A stretch of 64,000 nucleotides of DNA, taken from contig JAFRUS010000088.1 in assembly GCA_017438745.1 (NCBI GenBank), positions 62,001 through 126,000 of the forward strand, read 5' to 3'. The notes below the pieces were generated by a model. It was not told the origin of the DNA, searched no databases, and saw only the letters and a list, made by a program, of their open reading frames with translations. The position numbers and the translations under genes are program-made. The stretch is from Oscillospiraceae bacterium (GTDB taxonomy: Bacteria > Bacillota > Clostridia > Oscillospirales > Ruminococcaceae). Numbering within the stretch: the stretch's first letter is position 1; each line of letters begins with the position of its first letter. Positions 44,924 to 53,014 of this stretch are shown piece after piece.

Positions 44924-46510
44924 ATGGATCTTTATAAAGGTTTCATACATACAGACGGCAGGCTGCTCAGAGACGAAAACGACAAGGAGTATCTGCTGAA
45001 GGGTATGGCTTTCGGAAATAATGTCTGGGATAATCCGTCGCTTCCACCGTATGATACTCATCATACGAGGGACAGCTACAGAGAGCTTGCAGAAATGGGA
45101 TTTAACTCTGTAAGATTTTATCTGAATTACGGATTGTTCGAAGATGATAACAAACCATATGAATACAAGGAGACCGGCTTCGAGTGGATCGACCGCAATG
45201 TGGAGTGGGCTAAGGAAAACGGTATGCGTATCGTTCTCAACATGCATTATCCGCAGGGAGGTTATCAGTCTCAGGGCGGGGGAACTGCTTTGTGGAGTGA
45301 CGAGGAAAATCAGAACAGACTTATCGCACTCTGGAAAGCTATTGCTGAACATTACTGCGATGAACCATGCATTGTCGGCTACGGACTTCTCAATGAACCG
45401 GTAATCCCGGCAGATGATGTCTGGGCGGGAAGCAGAAAATGGGCTGAACTTCTTAACAGAATGATAAAGGCTGTTCGTGAAGCCGACCGTAATCATATAA
45501 TCTTTATCGAAAAGATACTGACTTTCCAGAACGAGGAGACTTTTGAACTGGAATGGAGCAGATCCAACGACGAGCATAATTTTGCTCTTTCCGATGACAA
45601 TTACAATGCGGTTTATGAATTCCATTTCTATAATCCGTATACATTTACTCATCAGGGACTTTCCTGGTCGAACACAAGTGAGTTCAATAAGGTTTATCCG
45701 AACGAAGACGATATTTTTGCTGACGGTGTAAGCTGGCATGCAGGTACTTTCAACGGCGAACAGTGTGATCTTGAAAGCAGGGACTGGCAGTACATTGAAA
45801 GTGATCGTGTTACCGTAACTGACGATGACCAGGTATTAAGCTACGTTTTCCAGGCACGAGAGATCGGTGAAAACGGTGCCGTTTATGTTGACGACATCGC
45901 AATAACTGAATTCGACAGCGAAGGCAATCGTACCCGTGTTGTATATGCAAGCAATTTTGACAAGTCCTGCTCAATGTATTTCTGGGCAAGCAATAATATA
46001 GGAAACGGCAAGTTCGTAAGTACCAAGGGAAGAAAACGCGGCGGAAGCTACCTTGTTTCCGGTACGACAGATGACGCCAGTGGTTCAGTCGGATTTTTCA
46101 GACCGGTGAAGAACTACAGCTATCAGGCCAGCGGATATTTCCGCATCCGTTCATCAAGCGGCGAAGCTACCATCAGACCGCGAGTTGATATCTGGAAAGC
46201 TGAGTCTATCTCGTTCCTTAACAAGGATTTCCTTGACAAAAACATTAAGGCTTATGCTGAATTCTCGGAAAAATACAACGTTCCTGTATACTGCGGCGAA
46301 TTCGGTACCGGCACAGTGAGCTTTACTGATGACAAGGGAGGAGACCGCTGGGTATCAGACGTTATTGATATTTTCAATAAGTACAGGATAAGCTATAATT
46401 ATCACACATATCACGAGGAGTCCTTTGGACTTTACATGAACAGCTCCCTTGAACCTGCAGCAAACAGGAATGATCTCCTTTACGAGGTCCTTTGCAGGAA
46501 AAATAAGTAA
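44924..46510 (+). CDS. Glycoside hydrolase family 5 enzyme without signal peptide
   Basis: A 528-residue GH5 barrel with a large insertion. The acid/base Glu is E158 in GLLNEP; the nucleophile Glu is E459 in YCGEFGTG. VRFYLNYGLF and NMHYPQG are GH5 loop motifs. Between barrel strands 6 and 7, residues of about 255-425 form a beta-rich region resembling a carbohydrate-binding jelly roll (YVFQAREIGENGAVYVDDIAI, GGSYLVSGTTDDASGSVGFFRPV). There is no hydrophobic N-terminal signal and no dockerin, so it should be cytoplasmic, acting on short imported beta-glucans or mannans. RBS AGGGGGA precedes the ATG; no earlier in-frame start is visible. Confidence 0.9.
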   Translation: MDLYKGFIHTDGRLLRDENDKEYLLKGMAFGNNVWDNPSLPPYDTHHTRDSYRELAEMGFNSVRFYLNYGLFEDDNKPYEYKETGFEWIDRNVEWAKENGMRIVLNMHYPQGGYQSQGGGTALWSDEENQNRLIALWKAIAEHYCDEPCIVGYGLLNEPVIPADDVWAGSRKWAELLNRMIKAVREADRNHIIFIEKILTFQNEETFELEWSRSNDEHNFALSDDNYNAVYEFHFYNPYTFTHQGLSWSNTSEFNKVYPNEDDIFADGVSWHAGTFNGEQCDLESRDWQYIESDRVTVTDDDQVLSYVFQAREIGENGAVYVDDIAITEFDSEGNRTRVVYASNFDKSCSMYFWASNNIGNGKFVSTKGRKRGGSYLVSGTTDDASGSVGFFRPVKNYSYQASGYFRIRSSSGEATIRPRVDIWKAESISFLNKDFLDKNIKAYAEFSEKYNVPVYCGEFGTGTVSFTDDKGGDRWVSDVIDIFNKYRISYNYHTYHEESFGLYMNSSLEPAANRNDLLYEVLCRKNK

Positions 46511-46514
46511 TTTA

Positions 46515-46540
46515 AAGACCTGGCCTGACGGCTGGGTCTT
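46515..46540 (+). terminator. Hairpin after the GH5 gene
   Basis: AAGACCTGGCC (46515-46525) and GGCTGGGTCTT (46530-46540) pair over 11 positions with G-T pairs. Only a weak T-rich tail (ATTGCTT) follows. Confidence 0.55.
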
Positions 46541-46575
46541 ATTGCTTACATGCTGTGATCTGAAAACAAAGTGAT

Positions 46576-46625
46576 TATACTATATATAATAGTATAGATG
46601 TTTCTCGTATACTATATATAGTATA
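46576..46625. repeat. Two tandem AT-rich palindromes
   Basis: Site 1 (46576-46596): TATACTAT and ATAGTATA around five bases. Site 2 (46608-46625): perfect palindrome TATACTATATATAGTATA. The two centres are about 30 bases apart, near three helical turns, as for a dimeric DNA-binding protein. They lie between GH5 and the terminator of the C39 gene. Confidence 0.6.
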
Positions 46626-46764
46626 ACTCAGACTTTGGAGTAAACTTGTATCTGGCTAAATTTTAGAATTCAGGTTAACGGCTCTGACACTGGTTGTATC
46701 TGCTGATGGTTAACTTCTTCTCGAACGAGTTGACTATCCAGGATGAAGATTTGATCGTTAACTG

Positions 46765-46806
46765 AAAACTCGCAGGTTAACTTAACATCGTTAACCTGCG
46801 AGTTTT
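46765..46806. terminator. Terminator of the C39 lipoprotein gene, perfect 17-bp stem
   Basis: AAAACTCGCAGGTTAAC (46765-46781) pairs perfectly with GTTAACCTGCGAGTTTT (46790-46806) around eight bases. It ends in T-runs on both strands and overlaps the minus-strand stop codon. Confidence 0.85.
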
Positions 46807-47603
46807 TAGTCTATTATGATCGCTTGCTTGTCAAGCTGATTGTATATCATTTTAAAACGGTCTCTGTTGTATTTCATCATACCCTTAAGCGGATCGGCAG
46901 CAATTACAGTGTTGTCTTTTTTGTCATATCCGCAGAGTACCATGCAGTGTTCATTATTGTACCACTGTACCGGTGTTTCATTCTGATCGTAGTAAGCATC
47001 TGTAAGCTCAACGTCCATCAGATTCATGCTTGCCCATACTATAACAGGAACATCATTGTCGATATATTCGAAAAGATCATCAAATTCCGTTCCGCTAATG
47101 TTCCATGCTGTAACATCCATGGTTCTCTGGATAAGATATCTCTGTGCTGCTTCAACGATAACCGGAGCATAGCATCCGTAACCGCCGTCTGAAGCAGGAT
47201 TTCCGATAAACGCCTTGTCAAAGCCTGTGCTTCCGAGAGCAGCAGTTGTGAGATAATTCTTTGCAAGTTCCGTTTTGGTAACATCATATCCTAAGTAGTT
47301 AAGAACACTTGTAAGAGCTGTGACCTCGCATCCTGTCGGGAGTTCCGGCAACTGCATGACGCAGTTCATATTTATCCTGTGTTCTGACTTTTCAGTTTCT
47401 TTGTTTAAATTGACTATCGGATCTTCAGTTTTAACGCTGTCAAGTCCGATTTCCGGTCTGTCATATCTTTCAACCAATTCAACCGGAGTAATTTTATTTG
47501 TAAACTCATCATCAAACAGATTCTCATTTTTCCTTGCAGAACAGGAACTCAACCCTAACAGCAGCGTACCTGCAATGATGAGTGGTGTTATTCTGTATTT
47601 CAA
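46806..47603 (-). CDS. C39-like cysteine peptidase lipoprotein
   Basis: A 265-residue protein with a lipoprotein signal (lipobox LSSC, Cys21). The mature part is a papain-like C39_2 domain with catalytic Cys92 in LPTGCEVTAL, the His in NEHCMVLCGYD, and the Asp in AADPLKG. Such domains cut peptides or isopeptide bonds outside the cell. The start is TTG 47603, with AAAGGAAG 8 bases upstream. It faces away from a related secreted gene, with both promoters in the 280-base gap. Confidence 0.9.
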   Translation of the reverse strand: MKYRITPLIIAGTLLLGLSSCSARKNENLFDDEFTNKITPVELVERYDRPEIGLDSVKTEDPIVNLNKETEKSEHRINMNCVMQLPELPTGCEVTALTSVLNYLGYDVTKTELAKNYLTTAALGSTGFDKAFIGNPASDGGYGCYAPVIVEAAQRYLIQRTMDVTAWNISGTEFDDLFEYIDNDVPVIVWASMNLMDVELTDAYYDQNETPVQWYNNEHCMVLCGYDKKDNTVIAADPLKGMMKYNRDRFKMIYNQLDKQAIIID

Positions 47604-47639
47604 GTAATTTACTTCCTTTAATTCAATTTTTATATTTCT

Positions 47640-47667
47640 ATTATAATGAAAAAAATAATTTTGTCAA
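47640..47667 (-). promoter_or_regulatory. Promoter of the C39 lipoprotein
   Basis: On the minus strand TTGACA (47662-47667), 16 bases, TATAAT (47640-47645). Confidence 0.65.
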
Positions 47668-47776
47668 TAGACAAGTTGGATAAAATTTTCGAATATCTCA
47701 TGTAACCTCTAACGGTAAAATCGCTTTTCAGTTTATAAATCAGTTTGCAACCTGTATTTTTGTACAAATTATGCCC

Positions 47777-47805
47777 TTGATAATTTGTGTGTGTTATGAT
47801 ATACT
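47777..47805 (+). promoter_or_regulatory. Promoter of the dockerin-like C39 gene
   Basis: TTGATA, 17 bases, TATACT just before the long leader; both elements can be read around 47777-47805. It diverges from the promoter at 47640. Confidence 0.5.
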
Positions 47806-47883
47806 TATACAGGTGTGCTGTTCGATGAGCAGTATACGACGGATTATAATGAAGAAATTATGAAACGGGAAAAAAGGTGCATT

Positions 47884-49329
47884 ATGAATTTTAAAACATT
47901 TGGAAAAGTGCTGTTAGCTGCAGCAACGTTTTCTGCGGTCGTTGTTTCAGGAAGAATAACTGGTCTGACCGGCAGGAACAGTGCACAGGCTGATTCAGCA
48001 TACACCTACACTGCTGCAGATATTTTAAAGCTCAAGCAGTGCTTTATGGGCAAAATAGAACTTGCTCCTGAAGAATATGACAAATATGATTTTAACGGAG
48101 ACGGTGTTATCAATCTCTGTGACATGAATCTTGCCGCTATGCTTCTGACTCAGGAGATCAAATTACCGGAAGTTACTACTACTGAGCCGGTTGTCACAGA
48201 TCTTCCTGAAATTACAATGCCGGTTACAACAGCTCGTTATCAGGATGCTATTCCGGATATACCGTATGCTACGGTTATTGAGCCGGAAAAACCTGTAACT
48301 GCTTCAGAAACTGTAACTACAGAAGCAACAACAACGACAGAAGTTACTACAACTGAGGCAACGACCACAACGGAAGCGACAACTACAACAGTTACGACCA
48401 CCACGGAACCTCCTGTTACCACAACGGTAACAACAACCACTGAGGCGCCGGTCACTACTGAAGAAGAGCTTCCTTCAGCAGGCGAACCAGTTAAGGTCGA
48501 AGTAGACAGCATCCTTCAGATGCCTGAACTTCCGAAGGGCAGTGAAGTTACAGCTCTTTCAATGATCCTTAACCATTACGGTTTCAATGCTGACAAAACA
48601 CTTCTTGCTGAACTTATGCCAAAGTTCAACTTCTACATAATCGATGATGTGCTTTACGGTGCTGACTTTATCAACACCTATCCTGGAAATCCAGCAAGTG
48701 CGGTTTCCGGCTACGGATGCTATACACCTTGTATGGTGACAACAGCCGATAATTATTTCAAGCAGATCGGCGAGGAAACATATAAGCTTACTGATCTTAC
48801 AGGTAAGGATTTTGACTCGCTTCTTTCATACATCGATGCTGGAAGACCGGTTATGGTCTGGGCTACTATCGATATGATCGAACCTGAATATACTAAGTCC
48901 TGGATCACTCCGGACGGAAGAGATGTTCAGTGGTATGAAAACGAACACTGCTTTGTCCTTACAGGATACGACAAGGCTGCAAACAGAGTTTATGTCAACG
49001 ATCCTCAGAAGGGTAAAGTTACATACAGCCTGAGCGTTTTCAGATTCCGTTACAATCAGATGGGCAAATACGCTGCTGTTCTTTCGGGCGGAGATATAAA
49101 GGAAGTAAGTCCGGCACCACCAGTTGTACAGCCTTCAGTACCTTCTGACAGCAAATACCAGATAGGCGACGAAGTTGAATATTCCGGTCCTGTTTATTAT
49201 TCAGCCAACGGAGGTAAGTCTGTTGAGGTTGAAGGCACATACGAGATTACTGAGATTCTCGATGATGAGACCAAGCCTTACAGGATCAGACTTGGCACGG
49301 CCGGTTGGGTTCCGATAGACTTCAAGTAA
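47884..49329 (+). CDS. Secreted dockerin-like protein with C39 domain, catalytic Cys replaced by Ser
   Basis: A 481-residue protein. The N-terminus has a Sec-type signal (residues 1-36, cut near AQA). A dockerin-like repeat follows: residues of about 40-95 with DFNGDGVINLCDMNLA, an EF-hand like that of cellulosomal dockerins. Then comes a Thr/Glu/Val-rich linker. The C39_2 domain (about residues 205-395) has the sister's pattern MPELPKGSEVTAL, but the catalytic Cys is Ser220 (codon AGT). The His (NEHCFVL) and Asp (VNDPQKG) remain. A C-terminal SH3-like region (about 420-480) ends it. ATG 47884 is chosen for the RBS (AAAAGGTG) and clean signal; ATG 47860 is the alternative. Confidence 0.9.
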   Translation: MNFKTFGKVLLAAATFSAVVVSGRITGLTGRNSAQADSAYTYTAADILKLKQCFMGKIELAPEEYDKYDFNGDGVINLCDMNLAAMLLTQEIKLPEVTTTEPVVTDLPEITMPVTTARYQDAIPDIPYATVIEPEKPVTASETVTTEATTTTEVTTTEATTTTEATTTTVTTTTEPPVTTTVTTTTEAPVTTEEELPSAGEPVKVEVDSILQMPELPKGSEVTALSMILNHYGFNADKTLLAELMPKFNFYIIDDVLYGADFINTYPGNPASAVSGYGCYTPCMVTTADNYFKQIGEETYKLTDLTGKDFDSLLSYIDAGRPVMVWATIDMIEPEYTKSWITPDGRDVQWYENEHCFVLTGYDKAANRVYVNDPQKGKVTYSLSVFRFRYNQMGKYAAVLSGGDIKEVSPAPPVVQPSVPSDSKYQIGDEVEYSGPVYYSANGGKSVEVEGTYEITEILDDETKPYRIRLGTAGWVPIDFK

Positions 49330-49510: not shown

Positions 49511-52500
49511 ATGAAAACAAAAATTGACATCAAAAAAACTTCGCGCGCATCAGTATCTATCATGCTTTCATTTCTGATGCTTCCTGTGTACACATTCGGT
49601 GCTGCTGTAGCGGACAGTGTCAGGATCTCATCAGCAAAGACAATGGCTGCAGGTGCTGCTGATCTTACGGCGGATGCAGGGCTTTCTGATTTTAACGGAG
49701 TTCTTAAGGATGTTTACGGACTGTTTGCTGCTTCTTCCAGCGAGAAAGAGCTTGAAGAAAATCTTAACGATTATTTTTACAGGACTATCAATAACACAGC
49801 TTTGACCGAGGATGATGCACAGAGCAGAAAATACATTTCATCACTTGCTGACATATTTTCAGATCCTTCAAAGGCTGATTTCAAAAATCTTGTATCGCTT
49901 AATACGGAATCTTTTAATGCAGAGTATACTGAAGGAGCAGTACTTGCAAATCCGGAAGTTCTCAAAAGCCAGATAACCGAGTATATGAAATATTCAGGTC
50001 CGCTTAAAATGAGCAGCGGAATCCTCAACAAAGTCGGAGCTTTCAGGGATTTCAGTAAGCAGAACAAGGCTGTCACAGCAAAGATCGAATATGACAAGAG
50101 TCTTGAAAAGATAAACAAGAAATGCGCTGCCGTATGGCGGAGTGCATCAGACTACAACAGCTTCATTACTTCCGGTACTTTTTCAGGTTCTGTGAATGCT
50201 TCGGAAAACGAAAAGCAGGTAAGGGATATTTATAAAAACGCTGTATCCATCATGTATATGTACAAGTATTCTGAAGACACATACATAAACACTGACAAGC
50301 AGGCTGAAAAGGATGTAAAGGATACTGCATCTGCAGAACAGAAGTCAGTTTTAGATGTTGCAGCTGAAAAGCTCGGCGGTTATGTGGCATCAGATAACGG
50401 TGACGATTCCGGATTTATGAGTGAGATAAAAAACATTGCAGCTTCATCTGATTTTGATCACGTAAGAGGGATTCGTGGAAAATCAGCAGAACTCGATAAG
50501 GTAAAAACATACTGCGACATGTATAAGAAACAGTACGACAAGCTTTCAGATGCTGATAAGAAAAACAACAAGTCTTTTTACGACCGTGTGTGTGATCTGA
50601 GTTATCTTATGGATAAGACAGCTTCTGACGCACGTTTCATCCGAGATGCATGGAAGACACATGCCAATGCTTACTGCGGCAATGCTGCCGATATTCTTTC
50701 GAATTTCTGTACATCAGCAGATGAGGCTATAGCGTATCTTGAAGATACAAAGGATGGCCTTGAAGGTATTGTACTTGCTATCGATTCAGCTGAAAAGGCA
50801 GGTCAGAACTGGAAGACAGCTATCTCAGCTCTGTCAGAAGGCGATGTTAAAACCTCCATGCAGAACGAATACAACAATGATGTAAAATCACTGAATAAAA
50901 ACGACATTAATGATTATCTTGCGATAACTGAAAAGAATCTTGCAGCATTTAAAAACTTAAGAAGTTTTGCGGAAGGACTTAAATTCCACGGTGAGACTGT
51001 ATGTCAGTATATTGACTATACTTCAGTATTTGCTCCTGTGCTCTGTGACCGTGCTGTTTACAGCCAGAACGATACACCTGGTGCTGCAAATGATGAAGTA
51101 TCTTCTGAGCTCGTTTCAACAGTGAAACTCGGAAGTGAAAGCTATACAGAACAGGGAAGCGGATATAAGTTCTATAAATATCTTAACGATACATACGGAA
51201 ATACTTCAGTATCTCAGGCAGATAAGAAATCTGCAAAGGATCTTCTCAAGACAATGAAGGAACTCGGCGATCCTTCAAAGATCACTCAGAACATGCCGGC
51301 TACTGCAAAGACTGATCTCCGCTCAAAAATATCTGATGAAAAACTTAATGCAATAAATGCTTATCTTGCAGTTCCGGCTGCCGGTGAGAGCTTTACAGCA
51401 GCCGGCGGTGATACAGATGCTGAACAGGCACTGGAAAACAGTGAGGCTCTTCAGCAGAACACAGGAGCATACTTAAGTCAGATTGGTGACCTTGCCAGTG
51501 AGGGTATAGAGGATCTTCTTCTCAGCGAATATATCATGCAGATGTTCAGCTGTTACACATCTGAGACTGAATGCAGCGGAGGCAAGGTGAATCCTGTAAC
51601 TCCTAAGATGATGTCAGGCGTTCAGATGAATGAGCAGAATAACGTTTTCTACCGTTCAGAAGCAGAGTATATTCTCTGGGGAAATGAGGACATGGAAAAG
51701 AATCTCGCCTACACAAGAGCACTCATTTTCGGTACTAGATTCTCACTCAACAGCGTTTATGCATTTACCGATTCCGAGATACGCACAGTTACAACTACAG
51801 CTGCTACAGCTATCGCAGGATGGACAGGATTCGGCGTTCCGGTGGTAAAGACTGTGCTCGTTCTTTCCCTCGCTCTCTCCGAGTCTGTGATTGATCTCAA
51901 CACGCTTCTTGCAGGTGGCGAGGTGCCGGTATACAAGAATTCATCAACCTGGAATATGAAGCCGTCAGGCCTTATAAATGCACTTAAGAATAATTCCGGT
52001 GAAATAGTGAAGGTGGCATCTGCAAAGGCAGGAAAACAGGTTGAAGATATTTTCGGTAAAATTGAAAACGCAGCTGAAAATGGTGTTGATGAGCTTACAG
52101 ATACAGTTAACTCTTATGTGGACGAGTTTGCTGACGAAACAATCGAATCTGCAGTCAATACAGTTAACAATGTTGTATTTGCCACAGCTCTTTCCGTTAT
52201 TGACGGAGCTGAACAGAACATGAGCAAGGAAAATATAAAGAAACTCCTTCTTGAAAATCTTGACTCAATCGATACTTCTGGTACTGATCTTGGTTCAGTT
52301 GCTGCTGCGGAATTAAAGAAGCTTGCAGAAGCTAAAGCAGATGAATTTGCAGGAATGATCAGTAGTGCAGCTTCATCATCCATCGGCGGAACTAAGGAAA
52401 AAATCGAACAGATTAAAACGGATATTGCTGAACAGATCAAAAACACAGTTGATTCATTAAGAAATCCGGTAAAGAATACGGTAGACAATGTTGGAAAATC

Positions 52501-53014
52501 CGTAAAGGAAATAGCAAAGAACGGTATCGGTGCAGCAGGCGAATGTGCTGAAGACTACGCAAAGGATCTTGTTGGAAACATGGTAACAGGAGCCACTACA
52601 GCACTTACTGACAAGTTCGGCAGTGTAAACATAAACGCATCAAAGAAGGCTCCGTCACCGGCAAGCGCTATCACACTTACCTATAAGGAATATCTGAGAA
52701 TATTCCTTATGCTCGGAACAATGTCAGAGGAAAAGGAACGCGCAATGCTTTCAAGAACAGCAATTCTTATCGACGTGAACATGAACAACGGATTAAAGAA
52801 TGCCTCAGCCAGGGGATATACACTTACACCATCAGGAAACTTTGACATCAGCAAGGCAGCTTCAATGGTGACAGTAGACGCAGAAGTATCAGTAAACACA
52901 ATTCTTCCGGGAATCATCATTCCGAATTCAGTAGCAGGCGGCAGCGGTACATCAAATAACGGCATTACAGACAGAACAAAAAATATATCTGTAAGAACAG
53001 TTCTAAGTTACTGA
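49511..53014 (+). CDS. Large DUF5702-like secreted or membrane-anchored protein
   Basis: An 1167-residue protein with one N-terminal hydrophobic helix (SIMLSFLMLPVYTFGAAVADSVRISSA) followed by a TadE/DUF5702-type start with DVYGLFAASSS. The long middle is Ala/Ser/Lys-rich and helical, with repeated VKDTASAE, ENAAENGVDE and similar segments. A short hydrophobic stretch (GWTGFGVPVVKTVLVLSLALSESVI) is near residue 780. The C-terminus LTYKEYLRIFLMLGTMSEEKERAMLSR matches the DUF5702 C-terminal signature. Members are usually part of Tad/Flp pilus clusters; no other tad gene is in the window, so it may act alone or with genes elsewhere. GAGGAG precedes the ATG. Confidence 0.78.
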   Translation: MKTKIDIKKTSRASVSIMLSFLMLPVYTFGAAVADSVRISSAKTMAAGAADLTADAGLSDFNGVLKDVYGLFAASSSEKELEENLNDYFYRTINNTALTEDDAQSRKYISSLADIFSDPSKADFKNLVSLNTESFNAEYTEGAVLANPEVLKSQITEYMKYSGPLKMSSGILNKVGAFRDFSKQNKAVTAKIEYDKSLEKINKKCAAVWRSASDYNSFITSGTFSGSVNASENEKQVRDIYKNAVSIMYMYKYSEDTYINTDKQAEKDVKDTASAEQKSVLDVAAEKLGGYVASDNGDDSGFMSEIKNIAASSDFDHVRGIRGKSAELDKVKTYCDMYKKQYDKLSDADKKNNKSFYDRVCDLSYLMDKTASDARFIRDAWKTHANAYCGNAADILSNFCTSADEAIAYLEDTKDGLEGIVLAIDSAEKAGQNWKTAISALSEGDVKTSMQNEYNNDVKSLNKNDINDYLAITEKNLAAFKNLRSFAEGLKFHGETVCQYIDYTSVFAPVLCDRAVYSQNDTPGAANDEVSSELVSTVKLGSESYTEQGSGYKFYKYLNDTYGNTSVSQADKKSAKDLLKTMKELGDPSKITQNMPATAKTDLRSKISDEKLNAINAYLAVPAAGESFTAAGGDTDAEQALENSEALQQNTGAYLSQIGDLASEGIEDLLLSEYIMQMFSCYTSETECSGGKVNPVTPKMMSGVQMNEQNNVFYRSEAEYILWGNEDMEKNLAYTRALIFGTRFSLNSVYAFTDSEIRTVTTTAATAIAGWTGFGVPVVKTVLVLSLALSESVIDLNTLLAGGEVPVYKNSSTWNMKPSGLINALKNNSGEIVKVASAKAGKQVEDIFGKIENAAENGVDELTDTVNSYVDEFADETIESAVNTVNNVVFATALSVIDGAEQNMSKENIKKLLLENLDSIDTSGTDLGSVAAAELKKLAEAKADEFAGMISSAASSSIGGTKEKIEQIKTDIAEQIKNTVDSLRNPVKNTVDNVGKSVKEIAKNGIGAAGECAEDYAKDLVGNMVTGATTALTDKFGSVNINASKKAPSPASAITLTYKEYLRIFLMLGTMSEEKERAMLSRTAILIDVNMNNGLKNASARGYTLTPSGNFDISKAASMVTVDAEVSVNTILPGIIIPNSVAGGSGTSNNGITDRTKNISVRTVLSY

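Follow-up and report, generated by a model that had tools for sequence, protein, structure and literature searches.

The window analysed in this study is a 64,000-nucleotide stretch of the genome of an Oscillospiraceae bacterium, and it contains a divergent pair of C39-type genes whose start codons, TTG 47603 and ATG 47884, are separated by 280 bp. The gene on the minus strand (46806-47603) encodes a C39 lipoprotein of 265 aa, which matches PF13529 with 119 bits (cut-off 24), carries the lipobox LSSC as read from the sequence, and keeps its Cys92 in the motif TGCEVTAL (codon TGC at 47330-47328). The gene on the plus strand (47884-49329) encodes a dockerin-C39-SH3 protein of 481 aa, and the codon AGT at 48541-48543, read against the C39 alignment, places Ser220 at the catalytic Cys position. 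The original prediction described a divergent pair of a Cys92 lipoprotein and a Ser220 dockerin-like protein, and its numbering, motif and orientation are all correct. An RBS-like AAAAAGG lies just 5′ of ATG 47884, and an alternative in-frame GTG at 47815 would extend the product to 504 aa. The N-terminus reads as a signal peptide, by which the 481-aa product is a putative secreted protein; the host is a gut bacterium that degrades cellulose.

Residues 43-82 of this protein (48010-48129, plus strand, as are all features of this gene) form a half-dockerin with one Ca-loop, DFNGDGVIN, which corresponds to the second half of PF00404 (profile positions 11-50 of 57). The PF00404 score is 22.2 bits for the N-terminus alone and 18.6 bits for the whole protein, both below the cut-off of 22.9, and the first loop is missing, so that a single Ca-loop stands in place of the two repeats of a type I dockerin. 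The description of the protein as dockerin-like therefore holds for the one Ca-loop, although only half a module is present and its best score falls short of the Pfam cut-off. A Thr/Pro/Glu-rich linker, read from the translation, occupies 48172-48483, and it is followed by the C39-like papain-fold domain (aa 200-405; 48481-49098) and by a C-terminal SH3-like small beta-barrel (49156-49326), which was modelled by AlphaFold2 with a mean pLDDT of 92.7.

The C39-like domain is a member of the Peptidase_C39_2 family, with a PF13529 match at aa 206-374 that scores 95.2 bits against the cut-off of 24. Among the Pfam matches of the protein at E values up to 10 there was no NlpC/P60 family, C39 families being matched instead, and the Pfam scan of the 481 aa found no ABC transporter domain. 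An AlphaFold2 model of aa 200-481, built with 64 aligned sequences, had a mean pLDDT of 92.1. The top structure for this model in VIA-align was 3erv, with a Z of 25.2 and an rmsd of 2.1 Å across 192 residues. It was followed by 6mpz_D, a C39 domain from an AMS/PCAT transporter, with a Z of 16.1 and an rmsd of 2.4 across 135 residues, and by further C39, PCAT and papain-like entries at lower ranks. As modelled, the protein has the papain-like C39 fold. The nearest solved structure, 3ERV of Bacillus anthracis, also belongs to PF13529 and shares the fold, the QxPELPxGxE motif, the His and the Asp; however, our protein has Ser for Cys, and its half-dockerin, linker and SH3-like barrel are additional.

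All 11 genomes of the genus contain a match to the Ser-type protein, with one orthologue per genome. The motif reads Thr-Gly-Cys in eight of the orthologues and Lys-Gly-Ser in the remaining three, which belong to the window's own genome (G000), G008 and G001 and use the codons AGT, AGC and AGT, respectively. In the tree, from which 15 loci judged to be redundant or not C39 were left out, the Ser trio has a support of 100/100 and is nested in the 11-row orthologue clade (100/97); the G008 orthologue is 90% identical to the C39 domain of the window. The alignment comprises 115 C39 domains, of which 108 have Cys at the catalytic position and seven, the Ser protein among them, have another residue. 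Thirty-three columns are at least 85% conserved within the 108 Cys rows, and the conservation of the QxPELP motif is partly a matter of selection because the rows were collected through this motif. In each of the three Ser-clade proteins, exactly one of the 33 columns is broken, which is the Cys itself. The triad members His355 (48946-48948) and Asp373 (49000-49002) are kept, which confirms by alignment the earlier statement that the His and Asp remain, and so is the invariant Gln212 (48517-48519), presumed to be the oxyanion residue by analogy with the C39 Gln. Few fixed differences separate the Ser clade from the eight Cys orthologues. Among them, the replacement of Thr218 by Lys (codon 48535-48537) stands out; it lies two residues before the Ser, at a site where all eight Cys orthologues have Thr, and it occurred in the same lineage as the change of Cys to Ser. 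The nearest Cys orthologue, that of G010, has the Cys codon TGT, and the one-base change from TGT to AGT that was originally proposed is therefore plausible. However, the codon of the neighbouring lipoprotein is TGC, and the change was accompanied by that of the nearby Thr.

The ratios of dN to dS for the C39 domain were 0.070, 0.069 and 0.099 in the three pairs of Ser-clade genes, at dS values of 0.77-0.98, which are to be read with the caution that dS near or above 1 is close to saturation. The lipoprotein C39 domain gave 0.035, 0.075 and 0.076 in the same three species. Ratios of 0.07-0.10 argue that, once the nucleophile was lost, purifying selection maintained the C39 domain. The loss of a catalytic codon is also what a decaying gene or a sequencing or assembly error would produce, but three genomes carry the Ser with the codons given above, they form a clade in the tree, the frames are open, and the domain is under constraint; we therefore regard error, strain mutation or decay as extremely improbable. 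According to the original prediction, a Cys in the homologues of related strains would point to an error or a strain mutation. That expectation fails, as the nearest relatives have Ser in three species out of three.

The adjacency of the two genes invites the explanation that they arose by a recent head-to-head duplication, after which one copy lost its nucleophile. The genes are direct neighbours in divergent orientation in G000, G001 and G008, and the C39 domains of the Ser protein and the lipoprotein are 40% identical. However, the nearest tree row to each gene is an orthologue in another species and not its neighbour. The lipoprotein clade, with orthologues in G008, G001, G006, G004 and G009, is separate from the clade of the Ser gene, and the two genes are separated by two others in G004 and lie on different contigs in G006 and G009. 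Each gene of the pair, judged by the tree, belongs to its own old, genus-wide clade. The local duplication suggested previously is contradicted by these strongly supported clades and by the separate positions in other species, and we consider it very improbable.

The rarity of the replacement was assessed with the pattern QxPELPxGXE in 396 genomes of the family, 115 of which contained matches. By hand count, the 150 matches listed, out of a larger number, include 135 with Cys, not every one of which is confirmed as C39, and 15 without. Eight of the latter were rejected as not C39, namely four sigma-factor-like proteins of the genus g26 and the matches in G072, G254, G180 and G313:C36. This leaves seven C39 proteins without Cys among the matches listed (five Ser, one Asn and one Gly), and the five with Ser are the three of the window's clade and those of G304 and G269. 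The Ser pattern itself was found in nine genomes, of which G014, G081, G125 and G390 carry a non-C39 match and were dismissed, and among 291 genomes sampled across the class it matched the window's own genome only; both of these scans used AGY codons, to which TCN is invisible. The C39 protein of G304 (L092), known from a single genome, has VGSE with Ser for Cys, keeps the His, and breaks one conserved column. In the genus g28, a C39 copy has Asn, Gly or Ser for Cys (L088, L090 and L091, of G313, G147 and G269, respectively). This lineage also has Thr for His and breaks five to six of the 33 columns, and we interpret it as a fully dead C39 lineage, a putative pseudoenzyme family unrelated to the clade of the window, which has lost nothing conserved beyond the Cys. 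The g28 genes lie downstream of an HIGH_NTase1 gene, identified by Pfam in G269 and as a neighbour of 418-419 aa in the other two genomes.

We believe that the Ser gene encodes a maintained pseudopeptidase that binds a peptide in its old groove, and we assign this reading a probability of roughly 0.6. The original prediction that a C39-like domain without its nucleophile is most probably a binding module is strengthened by the clade-wide presence of Ser. Under this reading, the genus orthologues are secreted C39-like cysteine peptidases bearing a half-dockerin, and in the ancestor of the three species the nucleophile would have been replaced by Ser and Thr218 by Lys. The Ser would have abolished peptide cleavage, or nearly so, leaving no useful cutting rate. 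Selection would nevertheless have preserved the fold, the groove and the remaining conserved residues, such that the C39 groove, with the SH3-like barrel as a second contact, may hold a peptide or a cell-wall ligand. The window's genome retains Cys paralogues, and peptidase activity could thus be covered elsewhere. Precedents for this reading are the malarial protein SERA5 and, within the C39 fold, the C39-like domain of HlyB, both of which are described below. Two observations count against this reading: the half-dockerin scores below the Pfam cut-off, and the His and Asp of the triad are retained. Because the dead g28 lineage lost its His as well, the retention of the His and Asp in the Ser clade could mean residual chemistry.

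Such chemistry would be that of a serine enzyme, in which Ser220, His355 and Asp373, together with Gln212, perform slow hydrolysis or acyl transfer, with an ester as one possible substrate and with Lys218 perhaps modulating the reaction. The retention of the Gln, His, Asp and all other conserved columns in all three species, the fixation of Lys near the Ser, and the strong purifying selection are consistent with such an enzyme. However, the best-studied natural case of this replacement, SERA5 of Plasmodium, points the other way. SERA5 carries a natural Ser and is reported to show no detectable protease activity, to become active once this Ser is replaced by Cys, and to serve a non-enzymatic function (PMC4671257). 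It resembles our protein in having a natural and conserved Ser at the Cys site of a papain-like domain and, under the pseudopeptidase reading, in its non-enzymatic function; it differs in being eukaryotic and of unrelated architecture, and its function has been tested, whereas that of our protein is predicted. It is the closest tested parallel to the Ser protein. The rarity of Ser in the scans described above also speaks against a serine enzyme, which we consider unlikely. A more specific version, in which one clade of cellulosome-bearing ruminococci made a Ser-His-Asp enzyme from a C39 peptidase, with Thr to Lys as the paired change, and the enzyme spread by single-gene exchange, appears to us decidedly doubtful.

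The SH3-like barrel bears on a further explanation. No Pfam family exceeded its cut-off in the barrel, and its matches to the PDB are weak (best Foldseek E 0.4; best VIA Z 5.3). It is conserved, the identity with the copy of the window ranging from 92% down to 53% in the six relatives compared. Proteins with at least one barrel, often in tandem, were also observed beside the C39 lipoprotein gene in G003:C50, G004:C83, G005:C102, G006:C343, G007:C41, G009:C181 and G010:C35, an arrangement suggestive of a shared target for C39 and barrel. The conservation of the barrel, and its occurrence as tandem repeats in separate proteins adjoining C39 genes, would also be expected if the protein were structural or served targeting, with the half-dockerin, linker and barrel doing the work and the C39 fold as a mere spacer. 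However, 32 of the 33 conserved columns are kept, those of the triad His and Asp among them, which would not be expected of a spacer, and we find this explanation quite improbable.

For the maintained pseudopeptidase, the N-terminal half-dockerin offers a possible tether to a cohesin of a cell-surface scaffold. Cohesin matches are present in all 11 genus genomes, and the 22 matches in the window's own genome make such tethering possible as far as the sequences can tell. A precedent for single-repeat dockerins exists in Ruminococcus flavefaciens FD-1, for which the available portion of the report (PMC2930009) lists 19 N-terminal dockerins and describes the single-repeat group either as partial or in terms of a single-binding mode. 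The Group 2 dockerins of that strain have, like the Ser protein, one recognised Ca-binding repeat; theirs is the first repeat, in a C-terminal position, whereas the Ser protein retains the second half of the module at its N-terminus. By reading, the same type of N-terminus occurs in the eight Cys orthologues, with the loop pattern in seven of them. A scan of named loci, in which 80 of 578 were kept, gave a tally of 81 Cys to 1 Ser, and because no residue other than Cys or Ser was allowed at that position, it cannot reveal any others there. Among the 80 named loci, 14 rows have a dockerin-like loop ahead of the motif, 13 of them with Cys and one with Ser. These mostly Cys rows and the eight Cys orthologues of the genus contradict the idea that Ser is tied to dockerin linkage.

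A papain-like module whose catalytic Cys is replaced by Ser has already been described in the same bacterial group. Levy-Assaraf et al. (PMC3573020) reported the replacement for an X-dockerin protein from R. flavefaciens 17, the homologue of RflaF_05439, where it affects the first of the NlpC/P60 repeats. That module is, like ours, papain-like and cellulosomal; however, it belongs to NlpC/P60 rather than C39, stands as one of two tandem modules in a protein with a C-terminal X-dockerin, and was described from one strain, the text at hand giving no evidence of fixation across species. The C39-like domain (CLD) of HlyB also has the C39 fold, lacks the catalytic Cys and is still in use, but, as the available part of the source describes it (PMC8277102), CLDs of this type have Tyr, Leu or Asn for the Cys and form part of an ABC transporter. 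No earlier report of the Ser protein was found in the open-licence literature searched, as judged by the listed titles and abstract openings. Our case adds a second family to one earlier Ser-for-Cys report in papain-like modules of R. flavefaciens-type cellulosomes. Moreover, it constitutes a natural experiment, in which one orthologous gene of one genus has its nucleophile in eight species and has lost it in three, with nothing else conserved lost, and with this contrast one can ask directly which of the two the cell relies on, the catalytic Cys or the binding groove. The significance is tempered because such pseudoproteases are known elsewhere and the function here is putative.

Together with the non-coding DNA on either side, the Ser gene forms an island of divergence from the nearest species, G008 (L079). 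Between about 47700 and 49500, the identity is 81-90% in most 150-bp bins, and the flanks, which comprise the lipoprotein and the downstream gene, are mostly 94-99% identical. In the comparison with G008, the C39 domain of the Ser protein has a dS of 0.77 and that of the lipoprotein a dS of 0.13. Both versions have Lys-Gly-Ser. The island would be accounted for either by exchange of this one gene with a less closely related donor or by exceptionally rapid change; the pattern of identity suggests exchange at this single locus. With regard to a phage origin, tblastn found five phage records, and among the matches listed none covered 80% of the query.

Immediately 5′ of the dockerin-C39 gene, seven of the eight genomes of the Cys type encode a protein of 305-326 aa, which is absent from this position in the Ser clade. 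It is 76-99% identical in the BLAST pairs listed, and its match to U32 is sub-threshold. We rejected the idea of an operon partner that was lost together with the Cys, as homologues of this protein (best matches 50-58% identical) occur elsewhere in G000, G001 and G008, and the remaining neighbours are unrelated genes of housekeeping or Wadjet-like type. In G010 (L081 5064-9498, and L082), the region upstream of the Cys-type gene contains a Wadjet-like pair (TIGR02679/TIGR02680 family) and encodes a protein of 305 aa that matches U32 weakly. On the other side of the lipoprotein, the interval from a GH5-like gene to the lipoprotein gene (46510-46806 of the window) lacks a gene of 842-865 aa that is present in G001 (L078 7699-10227) and G008 (L079 5594-8191), and whose product in G001 combines an AP-endonuclease-like barrel with an acyl-CoA ligase. 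The DUF5702 gene downstream of the Ser gene (49511-53014 of the window) is represented in G001 by two overlapping reading frames (L078 1087-4615).
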